Virus record (IMG/VR): IMGVR_UViG_3300036828_001001
Location: 1 to 41,751 of that record
Length of the DNA stretch: 41,751 bases
DNA from: a virus
Direction: 5' to 3' (one strand)
Position 1 is the stretch's first letter. The number at the start of each line of letters is the position of its first letter. The position numbers and the translations under genes were made by a program. Below, piece after piece: positions 9,996-41,751 of this stretch. A model generated the notes under the pieces. The model searched no databases, had not been told where the DNA came from, and saw only the letters and a program-made list of their open reading frames with translations.

Positions 9996-11017
9996 CCCGC
10001 CATTCAGACCGCATGCTGGCTGAGGACTTCATCGCCCAGCCCACCTACAAGCTTGGCAACAAGCTGATCGACTCAACTCTCTTCGTTCCGATCGTCAAGC
10101 AGGCCAGCAAGTTCGTCCTCGATGAGGAAGCTACCCGAATGGTCGTACGGCTCAGCAGCCAGCAGGGAATCGCCGATCCCGAGCACATGGCCTTAATGGC
10201 TAATGCCGCCTGGCCTGCCGCCGACCATGTCTGGATCGAACTGCCCAGTGAGTTCATGCTCAAAGAGCGCGAGCTGATCAACCCGGCGGGCCAGTACTGG
10301 CACAAGGTCGATGGCGTGCCATACGAGGAGCGCAAGCCACACCATCGAATGGCTGTCTTCGCCCACAAGAGGGACGACCAGAGCATGATCATTCACTGCG
10401 TTGAGCACTTCGTTGGCTCAGCGAAGGATGAGGTGTTCTCTTGGCCGCTGGGCTTTCTCTTTCACAAGTCACCGACCGAAGGTAAGCAAGACGCCAAGAC
10501 CCTCAAAGCTCTATGGGGTTACGGTAGCGACGCCACACACCTAGATCATCTGCGGGGTCGCGCGCATTTTACTCTGCATCCCGGCTTCGTAATGACCGAT
10601 CCTGAGTTCAGCACCCACGTCCGTGAGCTGCTCGGCTTCTTGCGGCTGTCGGTCGCCGCGCTGGCTATCCTCAACACCGTCGCGGAGGTCAGCGCCAGCA
10701 ACCGGCCGCCGGGCCAGTTCATCGGGAAGGGCGGACGCTCGCACCCGCGGCAGACGCGCTCGTTCGTCACCATCAAGCTGCCCAAGCGGATCAAGGACCC
10801 AGTCGCCTACGTGCGCCGCAAGTTCGCCCTGCACAGCCGCAAGCTGCACGACGTCAGCGCGCACTACCGCCACCTCCCCTACCCGCCCAACGCGCCGGGC
10901 TGGGAGTATGTCGACACGCACCTGGGCCCGCGCTGGCGCAAGCCCATCCCGAAGCACATGCGTGGCAATATCGAGCTCGGCGTCGTCGAGCACAAAGGCC
11001 ACCTGGTGAAGGCATGA
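9992..11017 (+). CDS. conserved-looking phage protein of unknown function, 341 aa
   Basis: The ATG at 9,992 overlaps the previous TGA. After a helical N-terminus, residues 70-115 carry AAWPAADHVWIELPSEFML, a strand-rich core. The middle holds a long helix (HVRELLGFLRLSVAALAIL) and a basic linker. The C-terminus reads RRKFALHSRKLHDVSAHYRH, then W and HMRGNIELGVVEHKG. An ending of the form R-K/R-x-H-x-V-x-x-H-x-R...H-x-RG...G-V is one I associate with phage proteins of unknown function. No catalytic motif is visible. It is the largest gene of the 9,573-12,601 unit and is followed by an ATGA-coupled basic miniprotein. Confidence 0.8.
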   Translation: MTRHSDRMLAEDFIAQPTYKLGNKLIDSTLFVPIVKQASKFVLDEEATRMVVRLSSQQGIADPEHMALMANAAWPAADHVWIELPSEFMLKERELINPAGQYWHKVDGVPYEERKPHHRMAVFAHKRDDQSMIIHCVEHFVGSAKDEVFSWPLGFLFHKSPTEGKQDAKTLKALWGYGSDATHLDHLRGRAHFTLHPGFVMTDPEFSTHVRELLGFLRLSVAALAILNTVAEVSASNRPPGQFIGKGGRSHPRQTRSFVTIKLPKRIKDPVAYVRRKFALHSRKLHDVSAHYRHLPYPPNAPGWEYVDTHLGPRWRKPIPKHMRGNIELGVVEHKGHLVKA

Positions 11018-21294: not shown

Positions 21295-22127
21295 ACAGCC
21301 TTATTAGATGACGACGATGGAAGCTGCTGCCCTGGCGACGGCGCTATGCTAGCGCCAGGCTGTGCCGTTGCTGACGGAATGATGCTCTGTCCGACCGGCG
21401 GATAGGCCACGCCCACCACATTGGCTTGCGGATCGACCACCGGCGGGTCACCAGACGTCTGAGTGCCTGAACCAAGCTTTGCCATGGCCTGGTTCATCAC
21501 TAGTTCGGCGCCAGCCTGGCTGATGATCGGCTGCTCGAACTCCCATTCCCACTCGGTCTGCACCTGCCCGCCGGGAATCTCCTGGCTGACGTCGCGTAGC
21601 GAGAGCAACAGGCATCCCTGATAGATGAAGCTTGGCGTCGCTACATTGAACCATCCACCTGCCGCGATATGCGCTGCCAGCGCATTCTGCAGGTTAGTCA
21701 TTACGCCCTTTTTGGCGCTATAGCTAACCGCGTGACTGGCCGGCGCTATCATCCGCAGGTTGATCTTCAGCGGCTTACTGATGACGGCATTAGCTGCTGT
21801 GGCTTGGTTAGCCAATGGGAAGTGAGCAACATCGTTATCGATCAATGTACCGCCGGGCGGTACTACGAAACGAGCGAAGACCTGCGTAGGCGCCTGTGCA
21901 TTGTTGATACTTGTATCACCTAACAGCTTATTGTCACCTGGTGTTACTGCGCTCGTGACACCTTGGCTAAATGAAGCAGCCTGCAAAAGATTAACAATAG
22001 GCACACTGCTGCCCGACAGGTTATTATTGCCGCCCATCAAGATGATTGGACTGATCTCATAATCACTAGAGAACTTAGCGGCGCTGCCACTAAATCGACT
22101 GCCCTTTATGAGATCCTTGCTGATCAT
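21291..22127 (-). CDS. tail/baseplate initiator-type protein, 278 aa
   Basis: The ATG at 22,127 overlaps the tape-measure stop. A beta-rich N-terminal 200 residues (FARFVVPPGGTLIDNDVAHF, PLKINLRMIAPASHAVSY, GGWFNVATPSFIYQGCLLL) includes a TEWEWEFEQPIISQAGAE segment of the type seen in tail-tube-like/initiator proteins. The last 60 residues are Pro/Ser/Gln-rich and probably disordered. Its place directly after the tape measure is that of the tail tube initiator (gp48/gp54- or gpU-like). The assignment is positional. Confidence 0.72.
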   Translation of the reverse strand: MISKDLIKGSRFSGSAAKFSSDYEISPIILMGGNNNLSGSSVPIVNLLQAASFSQGVTSAVTPGDNKLLGDTSINNAQAPTQVFARFVVPPGGTLIDNDVAHFPLANQATAANAVISKPLKINLRMIAPASHAVSYSAKKGVMTNLQNALAAHIAAGGWFNVATPSFIYQGCLLLSLRDVSQEIPGGQVQTEWEWEFEQPIISQAGAELVMNQAMAKLGSGTQTSGDPPVVDPQANVVGVAYPPVGQSIIPSATAQPGASIAPSPGQQLPSSSSNKAV

Positions 22128-24148
22128 TGCGACGCCGCGTTGACTGTGGGCGCCACCGCGCTGCCGGTATTGCTGTGAATCAGGATCTCAGCCCGCACAG
22201 CCACCTGACGGTTACGCTGGGCGATGTCTGCCGGACCTTCATAGGGCGTCAGCGCCTGGCCTGCTGCGCCCGCGCTACCGGCGCGCTGGGCTGCCGCATA
22301 TGCCGCTCCATAATAGGTCCGTGCCTCGTACTCACTAAAGGCCCACTGTTGCGGAAGCGTCGAATGTCGCAGATCTGGTAACTGATTGGCCGCTGCCCAC
22401 GCATTGTACCGGCTCTGCCGACCAACGCCCTTCTCATGCCACTGCGCCGAACCATACGCCAAACCCGAATCGTTCGATCCTGGCGGATTGGCGCGGTTGC
22501 CGCTCTCCAAGTCAAGCTGGGCAACCATGCCTGCCGCTGCGTACTTCGACCAACCACGGCTCATGTAATACTGCATAGCCGCTATGTCGTTGCCACTGAC
22601 GCGAGACTTGGCACCTCTGCCGCTAGCGCCGGGAATGCCTCTAGCACCGCCGCCGTCATTGCCTGCTGCGACCTGAGCATCAACCGCAGCATCGTGAGCC
22701 GCATCAGCCGCCTGCGCTCTTTGATCGGCTATACGTGCCGCATAGATATCAGCCAGACCTCCGGTCAAATGTTGGACTTTATCAATCTGAGCATTCAGCT
22801 GAACTTGCAGTTCAGCGATGCGTTTCTGACGTCTCTCTGGACTCCAACCAGGATCATGCTGGACTCTTTGCAGCTCAAGTCGAGTCGCCTGAATATCCTG
22901 GTGAGCGTTAAATATCGCCGCTTTGGTTGCTGCTTCCTGCGCCTTCCTGACGCCCTCCCTCTCTGAATAATCAGACGCCTCAGGAATCATATGCATTAAA
23001 CGAAGCCCGGCCACTATCTTCGAAGCAATAGCCGAAACGCTGTTTACGAATGTCTGGAAATCGTCTTGGAACTTCTTGCTGCCTATGTAGTCAGCAAACT
23101 TGCCTAAACCTTCACCAAGCGCGTTGAAGTCAATCCTATCAACGACCTGTATCGCAAGCTTCTCAAAGCCTTCGATTATCTTGTCTAGTGTGCCGGCCTT
23201 GTCAAGAGCCGACAACTTGTCGATGAACACATTTTCAATAAAGCGGCCAGCTTCGTTAACCCTGATTGAGAACTTCTGCCAGATCTCAGCGTCCTTATCA
23301 GACAAGGCACCGAACCTGCCGACGTCTCTGCGTGTGGCAGCTATGCTCGCGGGCAACTCACCAGGACGAGCTGCCGCCATCTTGCGGAGTTCGTCCATCG
23401 TGAAGATCTGCGTAACCTTGCGGGCATTAAGATAAGCTTCGTTACCTCCACTCTGCTGGTAAAGCTCCCGCGCCTTCGTCGCCATCTCTAGCGCCAAGTC
23501 GGCGTTGCTCTTACCTTGCGGATTGATACCCATCGCCGCGAACACAGCGCGTCGGCCTGGGTCTGCCCGCGACTCTGCAATGTTCTCAAGCACAGAGTTG
23601 ACATTAAAGTAACGCGACATCTGCACATTGAGTGCCTGGCGTTCGCCAATAGAGACACCCACACCCTGCGCCATCTCGCGCTCACGGCCAATGCCTGCCG
23701 CAAACTTGTCCAGCCCCCACATAGTGAAGGCACCGGCTACCAACGACGCTGCACCGCCGAACAGAGCCCACTTGCCTATGGACACCCCGATGTCGAGCAT
23801 ATTTTTGGCGATCTTCTTGGTCTGCTCGATCGCCTTGTCGCGCCTACGTTCAGCCTCCTTTTCCTTGCTAGCTTGCTCATCAAGCTGACGGCTGTGCTCT
23901 TCGTCAGCCTTCAAGCGCTCCTCAGCTGCCTTCTCCTCAAGTTCAGCAAGCTTGCGCGCTTTGTCATAGTGCAAGTCCAAGGCGACCGTCATCGCCGCGA
24001 TGCCGGCCGCGCCTAGCTTTATTGATTCGCCGGTCTCCTGCCAAGGCCCAGGCATCTGCTTAAGCTGGTCACGATACTTGTCGAAAGCTTCGACATACTT
24101 TCGAAACTGACTATCATCGACCTGTATCTCGAGGATTGACTTAGGCAA
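22124..24148 (-). CDS. tape measure protein with C-terminal tail-lysozyme domain, 674 aa
   Basis: I choose the TTG start at 24,148, which has GGAAAGG 7 nt upstream and overlaps the stop of the -1 frame; a TTG at 24,184 would add 12 residues. The protein has a long charged helical region at 60-130 (DKARKLAELEEKAAEERLKADE layout), a membrane-like stretch (KWALFGGAASLVAGAFTMWG, about 127-145), further helices to 500, then a Gly/Ala linker. Residues about 521-628 read MQYYMSRGWSKYAAAGMVAQ, LDLESGN (Glu548), ANPPGSNDSG, LAYGSAQWHEKG: the phage tail-lysozyme fold (Phage_lysozyme2) with its catalytic Glu. It sets tail length and cuts peptidoglycan at entry. Confidence 0.93.
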   Translation of the reverse strand: MPKSILEIQVDDSQFRKYVEAFDKYRDQLKQMPGPWQETGESIKLGAAGIAAMTVALDLHYDKARKLAELEEKAAEERLKADEEHSRQLDEQASKEKEAERRRDKAIEQTKKIAKNMLDIGVSIGKWALFGGAASLVAGAFTMWGLDKFAAGIGREREMAQGVGVSIGERQALNVQMSRYFNVNSVLENIAESRADPGRRAVFAAMGINPQGKSNADLALEMATKARELYQQSGGNEAYLNARKVTQIFTMDELRKMAAARPGELPASIAATRRDVGRFGALSDKDAEIWQKFSIRVNEAGRFIENVFIDKLSALDKAGTLDKIIEGFEKLAIQVVDRIDFNALGEGLGKFADYIGSKKFQDDFQTFVNSVSAIASKIVAGLRLMHMIPEASDYSEREGVRKAQEAATKAAIFNAHQDIQATRLELQRVQHDPGWSPERRQKRIAELQVQLNAQIDKVQHLTGGLADIYAARIADQRAQAADAAHDAAVDAQVAAGNDGGGARGIPGASGRGAKSRVSGNDIAAMQYYMSRGWSKYAAAGMVAQLDLESGNRANPPGSNDSGLAYGSAQWHEKGVGRQSRYNAWAAANQLPDLRHSTLPQQWAFSEYEARTYYGAAYAAAQRAGSAGAAGQALTPYEGPADIAQRNRQVAVRAEILIHSNTGSAVAPTVNAASQ

Positions 24149-24476
24149 GGCCGCGCCTTTCCATGAACTCCCTGAACCCCTCAACCACGAACCTGTTGCG
24201 ATACATGAGCGGGCTCAGAAAGAATTCCCAAACACCACCTCGGGTCTCAGAGAAGTATATGCGCCAGCCTAGAGGAGATGCCAACCAAGCTAGTGTGGCA
24301 CTGACACAGTTTGGTTCTTCTCGCCAGAATTCTCGTCCATTGTCAATGTCTTCAAGGAACTGAGAAATTCCGTACAGTTCGATAATGAGGTCTGCCCATC
24401 GAACAGATAAGCCGCTCCGCGGATCAACTTCGGTCGGTCCTTTGCTGGTGCGATCGCAGAGATCACAGTAAAAAAA
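24141..24476 (-). CDS. -1 frame extension of the tail assembly chaperone (gpGT-like), 111 codons
   Basis: Reading the minus strand in the -1 frame from the TTT at 24,476, an uninterrupted frame of 111 codons runs to TAA at 24,143-24,141. It starts FFYCDLCDRTSKGP and continues WADLIIELYGISQFLEDI, GREFWREEPN, ATLAWLASPLGWRIYF, VWEFFLSPLMY, EGFREFMERRGLA. Its composition is protein-like, while the zero frame stops at 24,290. There is no conventional start with a ribosome binding site. A T TTT TTT slippery heptamer (24,476-24,470) sits exactly where the frame opens. Programmed -1 frameshifting of tail chaperones between tube and tape measure is known from lambda and most long-tailed phages, so a fused product of about 258 residues is expected. 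Its stop overlaps the tape-measure start. Confidence 0.85.
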   Translation of the reverse strand, partial: FFYCDLCDRTSKGPTEVDPRSGLSVRWADLIIELYGISQFLEDIDNGREFWREEPNCVSATLAWLASPLGWRIYFSETRGGVWEFFLSPLMYRNRFVVEGFREFMERRGLA

Positions 24477-24916
24477 GCAATCTGGTTCAAGACCTCCATC
24501 GCTTCATCAGGGCTGATGAGCGGTGGCTGGCCATCAATTGCAACTTGCAGCGGAGTGAGGCCCCAGCCAGCCCCATCTGGTCTTACTGAAATGACGTTGG
24601 CCAATCGGCGCATCTCGCTCAGCAGACCAGCTTCTACTCCGTCAAATCCGTCCCACCAGTTAACGCCTGGCGAGCGATAAGTGTTCTTAGCCACCTCCTC
24701 GAGCGTGTAAGCTGCCACGCTAGGGCCGGCGGTTATACTGAGGCGCTCACTCATTAGCGCCGAGAAAGTCTTTGCCAAGACCATATGGTAGGTCTTAACG
24801 GTTTCCAGCAGCAAGGGTGCGCAATGCACGTAGAGCGGCGGGGTACCGTCTGTCTCATCATCCTCATCGGCGCGTGCCAAGATGATGACGAGATTCAGCC
24901 GCTTGTCTATTTGCAT
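24290..24916 (-). CDS. tail assembly chaperone (gpG-like), 208 aa
   Basis: Zero-frame product between tail tube and tape measure. Layout: MQIDKRLNLVIILARAD, YVHCAPLLLETVKTYHMVLA, WWDGFDGVEAGLLSEMRRLAN, then PDEAMEVLNQIAFFTVISAI and, after the slip site, FDGQTSLSNCTEFLSSLKTL and DENSGEKNQTVSVPH. The helical body and disordered acidic end fit the gpG role of coating the tape measure during tail assembly. A slip at 24,476-24,470 (codons 147-149) would exchange the last 59 residues for the -1 extension. It starts 6 nt after the tube gene. Confidence 0.87.
   Translation of the reverse strand: MQIDKRLNLVIILARADEDDETDGTPPLYVHCAPLLLETVKTYHMVLAKTFSALMSERLSITAGPSVAAYTLEEVAKNTYRSPGVNWWDGFDGVEAGLLSEMRRLANVISVRPDGAGWGLTPLQVAIDGQPPLISPDEAMEVLNQIAFFTVISAIAPAKDRPKLIRGAAYLFDGQTSLSNCTEFLSSLKTLTMDENSGEKNQTVSVPH
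24470..24476 (-). promoter_or_regulatory. programmed -1 ribosomal frameshift site (T TTT TTT)
   Basis: On the minus strand the bases are GC TTTTTTT ACTG. In the zero frame they are read GCT TTT TTT ACT, giving the perfect X XXY YYZ heptamer T TTT TTT. Downstream bases are GC-rich enough for a stimulatory structure, but I could not define one by eye. Shine-Dalgarno-like GGA occurs only weakly upstream. Confidence 0.8.
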
Positions 24917-24922
24917 CTATCC

Positions 24923-25360
24923 TCAGAATAAATTGGCGTTGATGGGGTAGGTCCCCCTGATCTGCACCGGATAGTCTGTGCTCTCACCAGTCATGTCGAT
25001 GTCAGCGACGTTGTCCAGGATGCAGTTGACCAGGTAGTAGGTCGGCATAGTAACAGCATCCGTGGTGATTACAACGTCCCCGATATTGGAATCGAAGAGG
25101 CGTTGTGACTCCCATAACGCCGCTATGGGCTGTGACTTGATCAGGTAGATCAGCACAGTTGCCACCTGATAGAGGCGCCCGCTGGGCACCGCGCCGGTCT
25201 GCGCCGGTAGGTAGTCAGAAGTCGCGCCCTCAAAGGTAAGGCGTGCCATCTTGTTACCGAAGAAACCACGCGTCGCGTTGAGCGCAGGGTTGCTGACGAC
25301 TTGAACGGCCACCAATGCCCGGTTCAGTGTGCCGAGCGGGACCTGTGGATTGCCGGGCAT
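24923..25360 (-). CDS. tail tube protein, 145 aa
   Basis: Position directly after the sheath and small size (145) define the tube candidate. The product is beta-rich: LNRALVAVQVVSNPALNATR, KMARLTFEGATSDYLPAQTG, ATVLIYLIKSQPIAALWES, VPTYYLVNCILDNVADIDM-like strand (MPTYYLVNCI), and QIRGTYPINANLF. The order sheath-tube-chaperone-tape measure supports it. It should form hexameric rings of the inner tail tube. Confidence 0.87.
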   Translation of the reverse strand: MPGNPQVPLGTLNRALVAVQVVSNPALNATRGFFGNKMARLTFEGATSDYLPAQTGAVPSGRLYQVATVLIYLIKSQPIAALWESQRLFDSNIGDVVITTDAVTMPTYYLVNCILDNVADIDMTGESTDYPVQIRGTYPINANLF

Positions 25361-25384: not shown

Positions 25385-26791
25385 TTAACCGAACGTCACG
25401 GCTTGCAGGTTGAAGAAGATGTTGAGGAACCCACGCAGCGGCGGATAGACACAGGCCAGCCCCGCATACTTTCCGACAGCGTAATCGCTGGGGTTCTCGG
25501 ACGTATAGACGACGAACGGTTCGGCGTTGATCACCAGCTGGCCATCGTAGTTACCCGCATTGAAGTTGGCCGCGAAATCGGCAATTGCCAGCTTCGTCGC
25601 AATGACTTGACCAACCGCGAGCCCGCTGGAGACCGCCAGGTTACCGATCTGCACCACACGATTCTGCAGGCGATCGATGCCAGGTTGATCGTAGTACAAC
25701 GGATTCAGACTGCCAGCGCTGCCGATGATCACTTCATTGGCAAGCGCGATGGCTGCGTTGTTCTGCATCCAGTCGGCGCTATACCAGAAGTTCCAGGGGT
25801 TGCCGTCCGACATCTGGCCCTGGAAGACGATGTTGCTGCTGGGCAGCCCGCCCTGGGCGCCGGTGCCGATCCAGTTGACGTTGGCGGCAGCTAGCTGGCT
25901 GAAGGTAGCCTGATTCCCAGACAGCGGATAAGGCGTCACGCCGAATGCTGGCGCATAGCTCATCGGAGGCACCTTGTTGGATGAAGAAGGTGCCTGCTTG
26001 GCAGCGGTGCCCAAGGGCGATGCACAGTCGAACTCAGTGGAGGGGATGCCTGGTGCTTCCACCATCGCGAACACGCACTTGTGGCCGGCGTACCGAGCCC
26101 GGTTGGCGACCGTCGTGGTGACGTAGAAATACGTCATCTTGTTGACGCCGTCGTACTGAGACAACAGCGAAAGGAACGCAGCGTTGGCATCCCACGCGCG
26201 CGGGATCAGATAGGCATACTGCGAGTTGATGGTCGGTCCGCCCGGTGCTGAGTTCGGGTTGTTGTTCAGCCAGGTGGTGAGGGCTGTGATGCCGGCGGCG
26301 ACCGTGCCCTCACCCAGTTCCAGCACATCAACCGCCAGCACGCCATTACCGGCGAAGTAGGTGGTACCCATAGCCAGCAGTTCGGCCTCGCTGCCCAGCG
26401 TCACAGTGCCGGGCACCGACGCCACGCCAGGATTGACAGCCAGAGGATAGGTGAAGGTGCTGGGACCACTGACAGTGATGTTGAAACTGCCGTTGTAGCC
26501 AGCCGGCGTAGCACCGGCGATCACTGCCGGAATGACGTCTGAGACCGTCCAGCCGTGTGTGGTCGATGTGACGCCGGTAGCGATGCCGCCTGACCATGTC
26601 AAGCTCGAGAGGTTCTTGGCCGCCGCCAGGGTAGCGATGAGCGACTGCAAGGTCCCGCAGCTGGTCAACGTATTGGGCGGCGTGTTGGTGCCGCCCTGGC
26701 TGATCAGCGCAACGGTCTGTTGAAGGGTGCTGGGCTGCGGTGATTGAACGACGGAAGCGTTGACCGTCGCAATAGCGGTAATCGTGCTCAT
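25385..26791 (-). CDS. tail sheath protein, DUF3383-type, 468 aa
   Basis: Contractile sheath subunit. The start STITAIATVNASVVQSPQPS, QQTVALISQGGTN and the C-terminal part (YYDQPGIDRLQNRVVQIG, LAVGQVIATKLAIADFAANF, YVYPPLRGFLNIFFNLQAV-type end, here VYPPLRGFLNIFFN) match the DUF3383 sheath-like family of phages. Residues about 62-133 are an insertion of a small beta-sandwich: WSGGIATGVTSTTHGWTVSD, PAGYNGSFNITVSGPSTF, PGVASVPGTVTLG, probably a surface decoration. The gene is followed by the tube gene at 25 nt. Confidence 0.9.
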   Translation of the reverse strand: MSTITAIATVNASVVQSPQPSTLQQTVALISQGGTNTPPNTLTSCGTLQSLIATLAAAKNLSSLTWSGGIATGVTSTTHGWTVSDVIPAVIAGATPAGYNGSFNITVSGPSTFTYPLAVNPGVASVPGTVTLGSEAELLAMGTTYFAGNGVLAVDVLELGEGTVAAGITALTTWLNNNPNSAPGGPTINSQYAYLIPRAWDANAAFLSLLSQYDGVNKMTYFYVTTTVANRARYAGHKCVFAMVEAPGIPSTEFDCASPLGTAAKQAPSSSNKVPPMSYAPAFGVTPYPLSGNQATFSQLAAANVNWIGTGAQGGLPSSNIVFQGQMSDGNPWNFWYSADWMQNNAAIALANEVIIGSAGSLNPLYYDQPGIDRLQNRVVQIGNLAVSSGLAVGQVIATKLAIADFAANFNAGNYDGQLVINAEPFVVYTSENPSDYAVGKYAGLACVYPPLRGFLNIFFNLQAVTFG

Positions 26792-33645: not shown

Positions 33646-34776
33646 TCAGTTTCGAGCCCGAAGGCCCAGGGTGCGGGCGCGGAGGCTAAGCGCCCGCCCG
33701 CGTTCGTCTTTCTTTAGAAGATTCTCGGCACGACGCTGAAGGCGTTTCAGACCTTCTTTGTTGTATCGGAGCGGCTGTGCGTCTGCCACGGGTTCGAGCG
33801 CTGCGGCGCGGTCGACACCCATGGGTGTTTCACCCTTGTCCCACACGCCCGCCGCACAGATGGCCACGTGGTCCACTAAGCGCGGGACGCCCTCGATAAG
33901 CACCCGCTGCCCATCCTCCATTGTCAGGCGTTCACCACCGCTTTCAGGACCGAACACCACTGTCGGGCTGGTAGAGACCTGACTATCACGCATTTCCTGC
34001 GCGGCTTCCTCATCGTAGATCTTCGCAATACCCCACACCTCATCACCCTTGATGTAGGGCAGAAAGATGCTGCCGATCGTGCGCTGAGCGAACTCCTTAC
34101 TGTCCAAGGTTGCCTTAGGCGGGTGCGTCCAGATGACCTGCAGGCCATTGCAGCGCGCCAGGAACTCCTCGTTCAGCCACTCAGCCGGCTCTCGCCAGAC
34201 GAACTCCTTGAGACCTACGCGATAGGCAGCGCCAGTGCCACTGATCCGCAGCGCGAACAACCACATATTCATGTAACGAATAGGGCTCATCAACTGCCCA
34301 GCAGCGATGGCGCGAGCACACTCCAGTTCGTTCCAGCGCAGACGACCTAGCGCGGTCAGCGCGCCCGGATGCACGGGCTGCGGTGGGCGCTCGACCGGTG
34401 CCCAGCACCAAGCGTCATGCTCATCGCACAGTATCGGTCGAAACTGCGATGGGATACGATGGATGAACGTGGTGAAATCCACGTCGTCCAACTGCATTAC
34501 CGTCTCTGTCGACATGCCGGCAAACGGCTGCTCAGCTGGTGCGATACCGCGCGTCCATGGCTCGATTAAGGTGCGTGGATCAACAACTAGACCGCATTCC
34601 TCTTCACACTCACGCGAGGCGCACTCGGCAACGCTCTCCAGACCCTCTTGCTGCCCACCTGGGAACGCCCACTCGAACGGATGATCAGAACCGCCACCGC
34701 GCTGCAACATCAGAGCAGTCTCTGCCCCGGTGCGCGGGTCTGGCGCTAGAATCAGAATGCCGGCAGCGACGATCAT
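33646..34776 (-). CDS. fusion of Nudix hydrolase and DUF2213-like domain, 376 aa
   Basis: The N-terminal 130 residues carry a perfect Nudix box G-x5-E-x7-REUxEExGU at 41-63 (G41, E47, R55-E56, E59-E60, G62), preceded by EWAFPGG, so the Nudix fold should be active on a nucleoside-diphosphate-linked substrate. After a linker, residues about 160-290 read YMNMWLFALRISGTGAAYRV, LKEFVWREPAEWLNEEFLAR, QVIWTHPPKATLDSKEFAQR and VWGIAKIYDEEAAQEMRDSQ, STSPTVVF. This resembles the DUF2213 family linked to phage prohead proteases. The C-terminus is basic and helical. Placed before the scaffold gene, where the prohead protease is expected. Confidence 0.85.
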   Translation of the reverse strand: MIVAAGILILAPDPRTGAETALMLQRGGGSDHPFEWAFPGGQQEGLESVAECASRECEEECGLVVDPRTLIEPWTRGIAPAEQPFAGMSTETVMQLDDVDFTTFIHRIPSQFRPILCDEHDAWCWAPVERPPQPVHPGALTALGRLRWNELECARAIAAGQLMSPIRYMNMWLFALRISGTGAAYRVGLKEFVWREPAEWLNEEFLARCNGLQVIWTHPPKATLDSKEFAQRTIGSIFLPYIKGDEVWGIAKIYDEEAAQEMRDSQVSTSPTVVFGPESGGERLTMEDGQRVLIEGVPRLVDHVAICAAGVWDKGETPMGVDRAAALEPVADAQPLRYNKEGLKRLQRRAENLLKKDERGRALSLRARTLGLRARN

Positions 34777-38128: not shown

Positions 38129-41011
38129 CTAACCAGTCGTGTAAATGCCCCCGGCGTAGATTGTATAAGCAGTGCCGCTGACAAAACCGAACACACCGCT
38201 CGAAGCCGGTCCCCAGACGTTGCCGATATAGGCGTTGCCCGTAATCACCCCGGTCAGATAGCCGTTAGACACTGATCCAAGGAGGTGGTCCGATGGACTA
38301 CCTGGGAATGGCGTCACATTGAAGAAGGTATAGCCAGCAAAACCAGCTGTCGGATTGAGCAGCCACCCACCAATGCCAAAACTTCCGCTCGCGGTCGTGA
38401 AGGTGCATGTGAAGCGAAGGCTCAGATCAAACCAGACCAAGAAGCCTAGTTGCCGGAAACTGCCACCCCCAGTGACGCCAGTGAAGACGGCATCGCCGAC
38501 AGTACCGACAATATTGGGAGTCGGTACGAAGCTAGTGGTGCCAGTGTAGTCACTCAGATCAGTCGAAGCTGGTTGGCTAGAGGTATGCACTCCAGCTGGC
38601 GAAACACTGTTGATCCACTGGTGCGCTACCGCCGTCTTCGACTGCACACCGCCGAGCGTGGTGGCTGTAGGTGCGGGAAGCTGTGCCGGCGCTATGAGCC
38701 CGCTGATGTCCGTGAACGCCGGCTGTGCAGTGGTCAGCGAGCCGTTAGTGCCTAGACCCGTGACGAAGTTGTGCGCCGTTACCGGCAGCGAAAACGCGCC
38801 GCCCATGGCGCTGGGTGCAGGTGTCGGCAGGCGCGCGGCGGGCAGAATGCCACTGGTAATATTCGAGGCGATAGTCGTGTCGATAGTAGCGCTGGGCGCC
38901 AGCGGCACGCCGTTCAGCTGGAAGGTGCCGTGTAACAGATTGAGTCCGGCTGGGCTGACCGAAACCAAGTCACCAATGACAGAGTCGTAGATCCTATAAT
39001 CAACACCAGTCGGGTTGTAGAGCAGAAACGACTTGCCCGTACCGGTGCGCGAGAAAGCTGCAAAAGCGGCATTCGGTCCAGAAGCTGAGACATTGCCATT
39101 ACCGGCAATCGAACCGTTCGCAACCAAGTTGCCACTGCCGTCAATAGTGATTTCACCGCCACCGAACAGCCCGACAGCAACCACATTGTTCTTGGAGCCA
39201 GCACCGCCGACATTGCTGAACCCCAGGAACCCGGAATTGAAGTCTGAATCGGAGACGCCAATAGTGATGTAATTTGCCGCATTCAAAGCCAGCGTTGAGT
39301 CAACGACCGACAACGCAAACTCGGCTCCAGGCGCTGTCACCACTAGGCCATTTTGACTGAACGTGGCAATATCAGCGGCACCGACACTCAGGATAAACGG
39401 CTTCTGAGTGGCACCATTTGAGGTACCAATGGCCAACCGTGCTGCATCAGATGCCATATGCATCTCAATCCAGTTAGTCGGCGCTGTCGTATTGTTGAAG
39501 ACGTCGGAGTCGTAGATGTTGATGCCGGTTGGGTTCGCGGCAAGTGGCGTCCCATTTGGGAACAGCGACACGATCATCGCCGTTGACGCTGTTGTCGGAT
39601 AGAAAGTGGCGTTGGGTGCCCCTGGGGAAGTAGGCCGCTGCGCGAGCTCCCATTGCGTCGCTCCAGGCGGAGCGACAAGCAGGCCACTTGGCAGCGTGGG
39701 CGAGGTTGCCAGCACTGTGGCGCCGGTGCCAGTGACGCCATTAGCGAGGTCCGTCGCTGTTGGCTGCGCCACGATGGGCGCGCCCACCGTGCTGATGCCA
39801 GTCACAAACATATGGGGCGTGGCCGCCAGCGAGTTAACGCCGCCCAGCACTGTCAGGCTGGGGTTCGGCAGCACACCGGCCAGATCGGTATAGTTGGGCT
39901 GTCGAACTGTTAATACGCCAGCCGTGTTGATGCCAGTTGCGAAGCTGTTGGCGACCGGCGCTAGCGCCTGCACGCCGCCCAAGGTCGTAGTCGTAGGCGC
40001 TGGAATCTGCGCAGGCGCAGCGACACCAGAGATGTCGGTGAAGGCAGGCTGGGCGGTGGTTGGCGCACCAAGCGCGCTGATGCCGGTCACAAAGAGGTGA
40101 GATGCTGGCGCTAGCGCGTTGACACCGCCTAGAGTGACGGTAGTTGGACTTGGCAGCACACCAGCCAAGTCGGTGTAGTTCGGTTGACGCAGCGTTGGCA
40201 CCCCTGCCGTGCTGATGCCCGTTACGAAACTCTGAGCGAGAGGCGCCTGTGATTGCACGCCACCAAGCGTCGTCGCTGTGGGCGTGGGCAATTGACTAGG
40301 CGCCGCGACACCCGCTATATCGGCGAACGCAGGCTGTGCAGCCACGATCGCTCCGCCGGTCGTAATACCGGTCACGAAGTTGTGAGCGGGCGCTGCAAAG
40401 GCCTGCACCGCTCCCACGCTGGTGAGCGTTGGCAACGGCAGCTGGCCTGGCGTCGCTTGCCCAGTCAGATCGTTGAACGCTGGCTGCGCAGTCTGCAAGC
40501 CACCGGCCGTGCTGACCCCGGTTAAAAAGTTGTGCGGCGTCGGATTCAGCGAGTTGATGCCGCCCAAGGTAACCGACGTGGGCGGCGGGATAACCGGGAC
40601 GCCACCAATATCGGAATACAGCGGTTGCGCGGTAGTCGGTGCGCCGGTCGGTCCAATGCCAGTGACAAACCTGTGTGCCGTCACTGCTAGAGATAGCACT
40701 CCACCTAACGTCGTCGCTGTTGGTGTCGGCAACTGGCTAGGATCGATCGTACCCGCGAAGTCACTGAAGACCGGCTGCGCTGCGATCGGCTGCCCAGCAG
40801 CGCTGATGCCAGTGATGTAATTGTGCAGCACGGGCGGGAATGAGAACACGCCGCCAAGCTTAGTCGGTGTCGGCGGCGGGAGCGCTGCTCCACCAAGTAC
40901 GACTCCAACCTTCGTCTTGAAGGAACCCACGTCGTCCTGGCCCTCAAGGTACTCCGTACCCTGTAAAACGGTCAGTTCACGGACGATTTCTTCAATGGTA
41001 TAGTTGGACAT
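38129..41011 (-). CDS. large tail fibre with tandem repeats, 960 aa
   Basis: I start at ATG 41,011, 4 nt after the stop of the previous fibre gene. An ATG at 41,035 would overlap it. The N-terminus (SNYTIEEIVRELTVLQGTEY) is short. Residues 44-425 are eight repeats of 45-50 residues with the core TATTLGGVxSL...HxFVTGIS...AQPxFxDLxG. Residues 430-700 are a different, beta-rich part (NIYDSDVFNNTTAPTNWIEM, GEITIDGSGNLVANGSIAGN) as in phage fibres with intramolecular shafts. Two more repeats follow, then a C-terminal domain of about 150 residues (GTVGDAVFTGVTGGG, VWFDLSLRFTCTFTTASGSF, AYTIYAGGIY) that is clearly related to the end of the neighbouring fibre. Confidence 0.88.
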   Translation of the reverse strand: MSNYTIEEIVRELTVLQGTEYLEGQDDVGSFKTKVGVVLGGAALPPPTPTKLGGVFSFPPVLHNYITGISAAGQPIAAQPVFSDFAGTIDPSQLPTPTATTLGGVLSLAVTAHRFVTGIGPTGAPTTAQPLYSDIGGVPVIPPPTSVTLGGINSLNPTPHNFLTGVSTAGGLQTAQPAFNDLTGQATPGQLPLPTLTSVGAVQAFAAPAHNFVTGITTGGAIVAAQPAFADIAGVAAPSQLPTPTATTLGGVQSQAPLAQSFVTGISTAGVPTLRQPNYTDLAGVLPSPTTVTLGGVNALAPASHLFVTGISALGAPTTAQPAFTDISGVAAPAQIPAPTTTTLGGVQALAPVANSFATGINTAGVLTVRQPNYTDLAGVLPNPSLTVLGGVNSLAATPHMFVTGISTVGAPIVAQPTATDLANGVTGTGATVLATSPTLPSGLLVAPPGATQWELAQRPTSPGAPNATFYPTTASTAMIVSLFPNGTPLAANPTGINIYDSDVFNNTTAPTNWIEMHMASDAARLAIGTSNGATQKPFILSVGAADIATFSQNGLVVTAPGAEFALSVVDSTLALNAANYITIGVSDSDFNSGFLGFSNVGGAGSKNNVVAVGLFGGGEITIDGSGNLVANGSIAGNGNVSASGPNAAFAAFSRTGTGKSFLLYNPTGVDYRIYDSVIGDLVSVSPAGLNLLHGTFQLNGVPLAPSATIDTTIASNITSGILPAARLPTPAPSAMGGAFSLPVTAHNFVTGLGTNGSLTTAQPAFTDISGLIAPAQLPAPTATTLGGVQSKTAVAHQWINSVSPAGVHTSSQPASTDLSDYTGTTSFVPTPNIVGTVGDAVFTGVTGGGSFRQLGFLVWFDLSLRFTCTFTTASGSFGIGGWLLNPTAGFAGYTFFNVTPFPGSPSDHLLGSVSNGYLTGVITGNAYIGNVWGPASSGVFGFVSGTAYTIYAGGIYTTG
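39737..40882 (-). repeat. eight tandem 45-50-residue fibre repeats
   Basis: Eight units in the fibre gene, each starting near LPxPTxTxLGGV and ending near AQPxFxDLxG. Units 4+5 and 6+7 carry the same alternation (APAHNFVTG versus TLRQPNYTDLAGV or TVRQPNYTDLAGV), so the array has a two-unit superrepeat of about 95 residues. Two further copies lie at about 38,540-38,830. The coordinates come from counting residues and may be off by a few bases. Confidence 0.8.
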
Positions 41012-41015
41012 CGAA

Positions 41016-41751
41016 TCAGTATCCGTTTGCCGCATAGACGCCGCCAGCGTGAATCTGATAGGCAGTGGCGCTCACTAAGCCGTAAGAAGGACCGAAGCTG
41101 TTACCGACATAGTTGTTACCGTAAATGAAACCAACCAAGTTACCGGCAGTGCTAATGCTACCAAACAGACCGGTGTTAGCTGGCGACACAGGCACTGGCG
41201 TCACTCCATATTGAACAAAATCGTAGCTGGCACTGATTCCCGGTGGTAAACCGCCAATAGTCAGAACACCGGACGCAGTGGTATGGGTCAGCGTAAACAT
41301 GACCCGGATGCCAAACCAGATAAGCGCACCAAACTTCACGTAATAACCTAACGATGAAACACCGCTAAACACCCCATCACCCAGCGTCGTTACACTGACA
41401 GTCAGCGCCGTCATATTGGCTGACCTAGGACTATAATCAGAAAGATCAGTACCCGCTGGTTGCGCCGTGGCTGGTAAGCCATTTACGTCAACAACCCCAG
41501 TCAAGAACTGGTGCGGCGTTTGCGCCGCCAAGGACTGAATGGCGCCTTGCCCGCTGATGCCGCTCCCAGCCGTTGCAGTCGGCAAGTCTAGACCGACCAG
41601 CTTGCGGAAAGCGGGTACGCCTGAGCCACCGCTGGCAGGCCCAGACCAGAAGCGGTTCTGGTTGACCGCGGGCCACACAGGCGCGTGCGCCAACGTGACG
41701 ATCTGGTTCAGGTCGATGGTGAGCGCATCGACAGCCCCGACCCGCAGCGCG
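41016..41751 (-). CDS. tail fibre protein, C-terminal part, cut by the window edge
   Basis: The frame is open from the window end (41,751) to TGA at 41,018-41,016. The TTG at 41,693 is not its start, as the upstream codons read VGAVDALTIDLNQIVTLAHA without a stop and make fibre-like sense. Residues include NRFWSGPASGGSGVPAFRKL, one repeat unit (TPHQFLTGVVDVNGLPATAQ), and a tip: LGDGVFSGVSSLGYYVKFGA, LTHTTASGVLTIGG, SGAYQIHAGGVY-type ending (AYQIHAGGVYAANGY). The tip is homologous to the end of the next fibre. Visible part about 244 residues. Confidence 0.85.
   Translation of the reverse strand, partial: ALRVGAVDALTIDLNQIVTLAHAPVWPAVNQNRFWSGPASGGSGVPAFRKLVGLDLPTATAGSGISGQGAIQSLAAQTPHQFLTGVVDVNGLPATAQPAGTDLSDYSPRSANMTALTVSVTTLGDGVFSGVSSLGYYVKFGALIWFGIRVMFTLTHTTASGVLTIGGLPPGISASYDFVQYGVTPVPVSPANTGLFGSISTAGNLVGFIYGNNYVGNSFGPSYGLVSATAYQIHAGGVYAANGY

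Follow-up and report, generated by a model that had tools for sequence, protein, structure and literature searches.

A putative phage tail assembly chaperone gene with a T_TTT_TTT slip site and a long overlap coding in two frames

Tail assembly chaperones made by frameshifting, including those with poly-T slip sites, are classical, with P2, Smp131 and Adele among the described examples (PMC3091744, PMC3931495, PMC12846349). Both lambda forms, gpG (short) and gpGT (long), bind the tape measure protein, and the part encoded in the -1 frame binds the tube protein (PMC5009743). The lambda gene lies between those for the major tail protein and the tape measure, and the -1 slip is at an X_XXY_YYZ heptamer (G_GGA_AAG) only seven codons before the end of G, such that GT consists of T fused to almost the whole of G; the -1 frame reaches 8 nt into the tape measure gene (T, 10115-10549; H, from 10542). 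In P2 (Peduoviridae), which has a contractile tail, the E/E+E' pair is made at a poly-T site with no downstream hairpin (T6G in P2, T7G or T7C in Smp131-like phages; PMC3931495, PMC3091744). The P2 gene likewise overlaps the tape measure gene by 8 nt, its two frames overlap for about eight codons after the slip, and the products are 91 aa (E) and 142 aa (E+E'). A conserved poly-T motif, GTTTTT, is present in the myovirus chaperone of phage Adele (Vandenendeviridae/Andersonviridae; TAC-N/TAC-NC), near the 3' end of TAC-N, and the open -1 frame of genes of this type is routinely missing from annotations (PMC12846349). In HK97 and Mu, the alternative frame stays open for no more than 16 and 12 codons, respectively.

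We analyzed a 41,751 nt stretch of viral DNA (IMG/VR record IMGVR_UViG_3300036828_001001, positions 1 to 41,751; referred to as the window) and describe a gene that very probably encodes a tail assembly chaperone in two forms by -1 ribosomal frameshifting, in the manner of lambda G/GT or P2 E/E+E'. The zero frame extends from an ATG at 24916 to a stop codon ending at 24290, and its residues 1-147 joined to the -1 extension give a predicted fusion (TAC-NC) of 258 aa and 29.1 kDa, matching the product of about 258 residues expected in a first-pass annotation of the same DNA. That annotation placed a frameshifted chaperone gene between tube and tape measure genes, and we find it between the sheath and putative tube genes on one side and a tape-measure-like gene on the other (Table 1), an order common to its relatives. 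The tube gene is probably such, judging from its position after the sheath, and the presence of a sheath gene (phrog_205) indicates that the tail is contractile, as in P2. From the slip, the -1 frame continues for 111 codons to a TAA, as first proposed, and we compute its end at 24143-24141. It was said merely to touch the tape measure start, whereas the likely TTG start of the tape-measure-like gene (24148-24146) gives an 8-nt overlap with the -1 stop, the same as in lambda and P2. In RothD the gene at the tape-measure-like position is annotated as a tape measure protein. We note that a Phage_lysozyme2 domain (PF18013) forms the C-terminal end of the tape-measure-like protein, and that the gene in the same place in several relatives is annotated as a lytic transglycosylase. 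Elsewhere in the window, the product of 33646-34776 (minus strand) has an odd pairing of an N-terminal NUDIX domain (PF00293) with a weak, below-cutoff DUF2213 match further on, and the 968-aa protein encoded at 38129-41035 (minus strand) has no Pfam match.

Table 1. Features of the putative chaperone locus and its neighbours in the window.
Feature	Coordinates	Strand	Remarks
Zero-frame product, predicted short chaperone isoform (TAC-N)	24290..24916	-	208 aa, 22.7 kDa; phrog_11810
Slippery heptamer T_TTT_TTT (codons GCT TTT TTT ACT)	24470..24476	-	X_XXY_YYZ phase
-1 frame extension, 111 codons, ends in TAA	24141..24476	-	phrog_14324
Dual-coded overlap, 59 zero-frame codons + stop	24290..24469	-	substitution pattern by codon position; recoding null
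Tape-measure-like gene, downstream neighbour	22124..24148	-	C-terminal phage tail lysozyme domain (PF18013)
Putative tail tube gene, upstream neighbour	24923..25360	-	phrog_6566, unknown function
Tail sheath gene	25385..26791	-	phrog_205

The seven-T run at 24476-24470 is indeed in X_XXY_YYZ phase, with GCT TTT TTT ACT read as T_TTT_TTT. T7 occurs once in the whole window (both strands), roughly the chance expectation; the run by itself is therefore unremarkable, and the evidence lies in its place and conservation. The phase of the heptamer is unchanged, and the homologous -1 frame is open, in all 88 relatives of the main set (80 distinct sequences including the window, 53 of them below 93% identity), and heptamer and open -1 frame (98-135 codons) are together in 89 of 89 loci from the viral-contig scan, the isolates and the window. 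Because the peptide pattern used for that scan, which added 80 loci, included Phe-Phe, the scan was redone with alignments restricted to the sequence before the slip. These searches, which set no condition on the slip, recovered the heptamer in 29 of 30 viral loci (the first set already contained some of them), two of two bacterial genome loci and three of three plasmid loci. The slippery run is in phase in all relatives but one, and no relative examined has a -1 stop before the region of the tape measure start. The sole exception, L118 (2900-2930), reads GTG TAT TTT ACG, perhaps a single-codon slip site, and retains an open, homologous -1 frame; a natural slip-site variant with an intact -1 frame is a useful comparison. 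Background usage in these genes is 33% TTT among Phe codons and 19% GTT among Val codons, and by the members' own codon usage the chance of NNT TTT TTT in all 53 is ~10^-88, a figure that is an indication only as it assumes independent members, which they are not.

A T run could also act at the level of transcription, with RNA polymerase adding or dropping a U such that a fraction of the mRNAs have a fused frame. Slippage is known for A or T homopolymers from about eight residues upwards (PMC3711429), and the run is T8 in 41 of the 53 relatives; however, it is only T7 in 12 (the window and 11 others), and T9 or more in none. Transcriptional slippage moreover needs no phase, whereas the run always lets both codons re-pair after a -1 shift and is always preceded by a codon ending in T (53 relatives), and we regard this explanation as improbable. 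The Rac-SA53-type site is carried by 36 E. coli genomes, and no length change is seen among the 20 matches listed. A search for a downstream stimulatory hairpin gave a mean z of -0.18 with no conserved downstream RNA structure, a likeness to P2. In 35 of the 53, a Shine-Dalgarno-like GAGGT precedes the run at the long distance of 15 nt from its end, and the Glu at this position is GAG in 39 of 45 compared with a background of 57% (p 2e-5, relatedness ignored); the motif is absent from the Rac-SA53-like group, and a stimulatory role for it is suggestive only.

The -1 frame was first thought to open exactly at the slip, although it actually opens 27 nt upstream. In nine of ten loci (isolates and window) its opening lies just 6-27 nt before the run, and the shift can therefore be placed at the run itself. 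A tblastn search of phage records with the -1 frame alone, one of the checks proposed in the first-pass annotation, did find homologues in related phages, with matches in 14 records that all start from its first residue; the zero frame matches seven. Nine isolates (Rac-SA53, vB_Apl-pPE4, RothD, Chronis, PdC23, three Yersinia YenM phages and QDWS) share this gene order, and every one of them has an identically phased T_TTT_TTT with an open -1 frame. The frame had been described as invisible to gene callers, and it is indeed unannotated in these nine records apart from a 105-nt ORF fragment in RothD, much as for Adele, but PHROGs does contain it as phrog_14324. The 53 zero-frame products all match phrog_11810 and the 53 -1 products all match phrog_14324; these are separate PHROGs families, both filed under unknown function, which we join here as one frameshifted gene. 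Scans of viral sequences with single proteins found no relatives, no Pfam family fits, and no zero-frame member matches a Pfam TAC family at E values up to 1. The CxxC reported near the start of the -1 frame is present in only six of the 53 relatives and we have rejected it as a zinc site or domain feature. Peptides predicted from the -1 frame of the window's phage include WADLIIELYGISQFLEDIDNGR and EEPNCVSATLAWLASPLGWR.

A family of its own in PHROGs and the short ORF annotated in RothD would also be consistent with the -1 frame being a separate gene, with its own start and no fusion. However, the first ATG, GTG or TTG of this frame in the window is 64 codons past the slip, beyond the conserved YG..FL.D motif, and internal initiation thus cannot yield the conserved -1 part. 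Seventeen of the 53 relatives lack any of these codons in the first 40 of the -1 frame, and conservation begins at the slip; we consider a separate gene highly improbable.

Comparison of 26 independent pairs of relatives indicates protein-level selection in both frames on one stretch of approximately 60 codons. Upstream of the slip there are 0.099, 0.058 and 0.310 substitutions per codon at zero-frame positions 1, 2 and 3, and in the overlap 0.089, 0.144 and 0.148, such that third-position changes are halved and second-position changes are up 2.5-fold (contingency p ~4e-47, relatedness ignored). Zero-frame position 2 is -1 position 3, and the pattern therefore fits two coding frames at once. 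The change in pattern begins at the slip, and in the -1 tail past the zero-frame stop the values are 0.105, 0.065 and 0.263 at -1 positions 1, 2 and 3. Codon conservation in both frames among relatives had been put forward as a check, and this comparison points to selection on both. When the zero-frame overlap of the window was recoded synonymously, the -1 frame was open in only 1.3% of trials. The zero frame goes on for 59 codons past the slip, as noted initially, if counted beyond the two TTT codons, and the overlap varies from 55 to 91 codons among relatives; the two products have no similarity to each other. We note that at ~24347-24360 (minus strand) the same dozen bases encode a near-invariant S-L-x-T in the zero frame and F-L-x-D in the -1 frame. 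Although about one T7 per window is expected by chance, a functionless open frame has a negligible probability and is refuted by the homologous open -1 frame in all relatives examined and by the codon-position signal of two frames.

The length of the overlap is the main difference from the described systems. The zero-frame stop is seven codons from the slip in lambda and eight in P2, compared with 55-91 here, where the shift replaces roughly 60 codons of the short form; the comparison covers four systems only (lambda, P2, HK97 and Mu), with Adele set apart by its published description. AlphaFold2 models the zero-frame product with a mean pLDDT of 88.9 and pTM of 0.85, confidently to about residue 190, and the last ~20 residues, of low confidence, are probably disordered. 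The slip falls inside a helix (136-155) of this model, and two more helices lie in the overlap. For the -1 part the model has six helices and a mean pLDDT of 83.6, and both alternative C-termini are thus predicted at fair to high confidence. With an overlap of 55-91 codons, the isoforms would have alternative, apparently folded C-termini. We lean towards a view in which the frameshift acts as a switch within a helix and one stretch of 55-91 codons gives two different folded C-terminal regions, so that the isoforms would be alternative proteins and not a protein and the same protein plus a tail. The zero-frame fold has no match to a solved structure (PDB) and only weak matches to viral models (E 0.09-2.8), several of which are named tail assembly chaperone; the -1 domain, searched against viral models only, has no match.

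Phase, conservation, the open frame and selection on both frames, all read from the DNA, support the initial proposal of a frameshifted chaperone, and we infer that frameshifting takes place and is ribosomal. Most ribosomes would make the 208-aa protein, and a minority, with tRNAs on UUU UUU, would slip back one base on U_UUU_UUU into the -1 frame to make the 258-aa protein. The two would have their first 149 residues in common, and the C-terminal region of the longer one would be different and entirely helical. If the roles are divided as in lambda gpG/gpGT, the shared part may coat the tape measure protein, and tail tube subunits may be recruited by the -1 part. The level of frameshifting is probably low; 6-7% has been measured for two HK97-like chaperone genes (PMC3711429), and in E. 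coli U_UUU_UUU shifts weakly compared with A_AAA_AAG (PMC5009743). Against the frameshifted chaperone we count this weak shifting, the lack of a conserved downstream RNA structure, the L118 site, the lack of detectable sequence homology to lambda G or T (hhalign probabilities of 0.4 and 0.1 percent), the lack of a solved fold match, and viral matches to named chaperones that are only weak. The likeness to P2 is one of tail type, gene layout and slip-site features.

What is new is the linkage of two parts, in separate PHROGs of unknown function, as one gene with an overlap of 55-91 codons. A function is suggested for both families at once, and the deposited genomes of several isolated phages appear to be missing part of a tail gene. 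Related prophages are present in the E. coli laboratory strains LY180 and KO11FL, and a direct test is therefore possible. The long two-frame overlap offers a natural test case for the evolution of two folded protein ends on one DNA, and it raises the question of what role the short isoform's own folded end may have.
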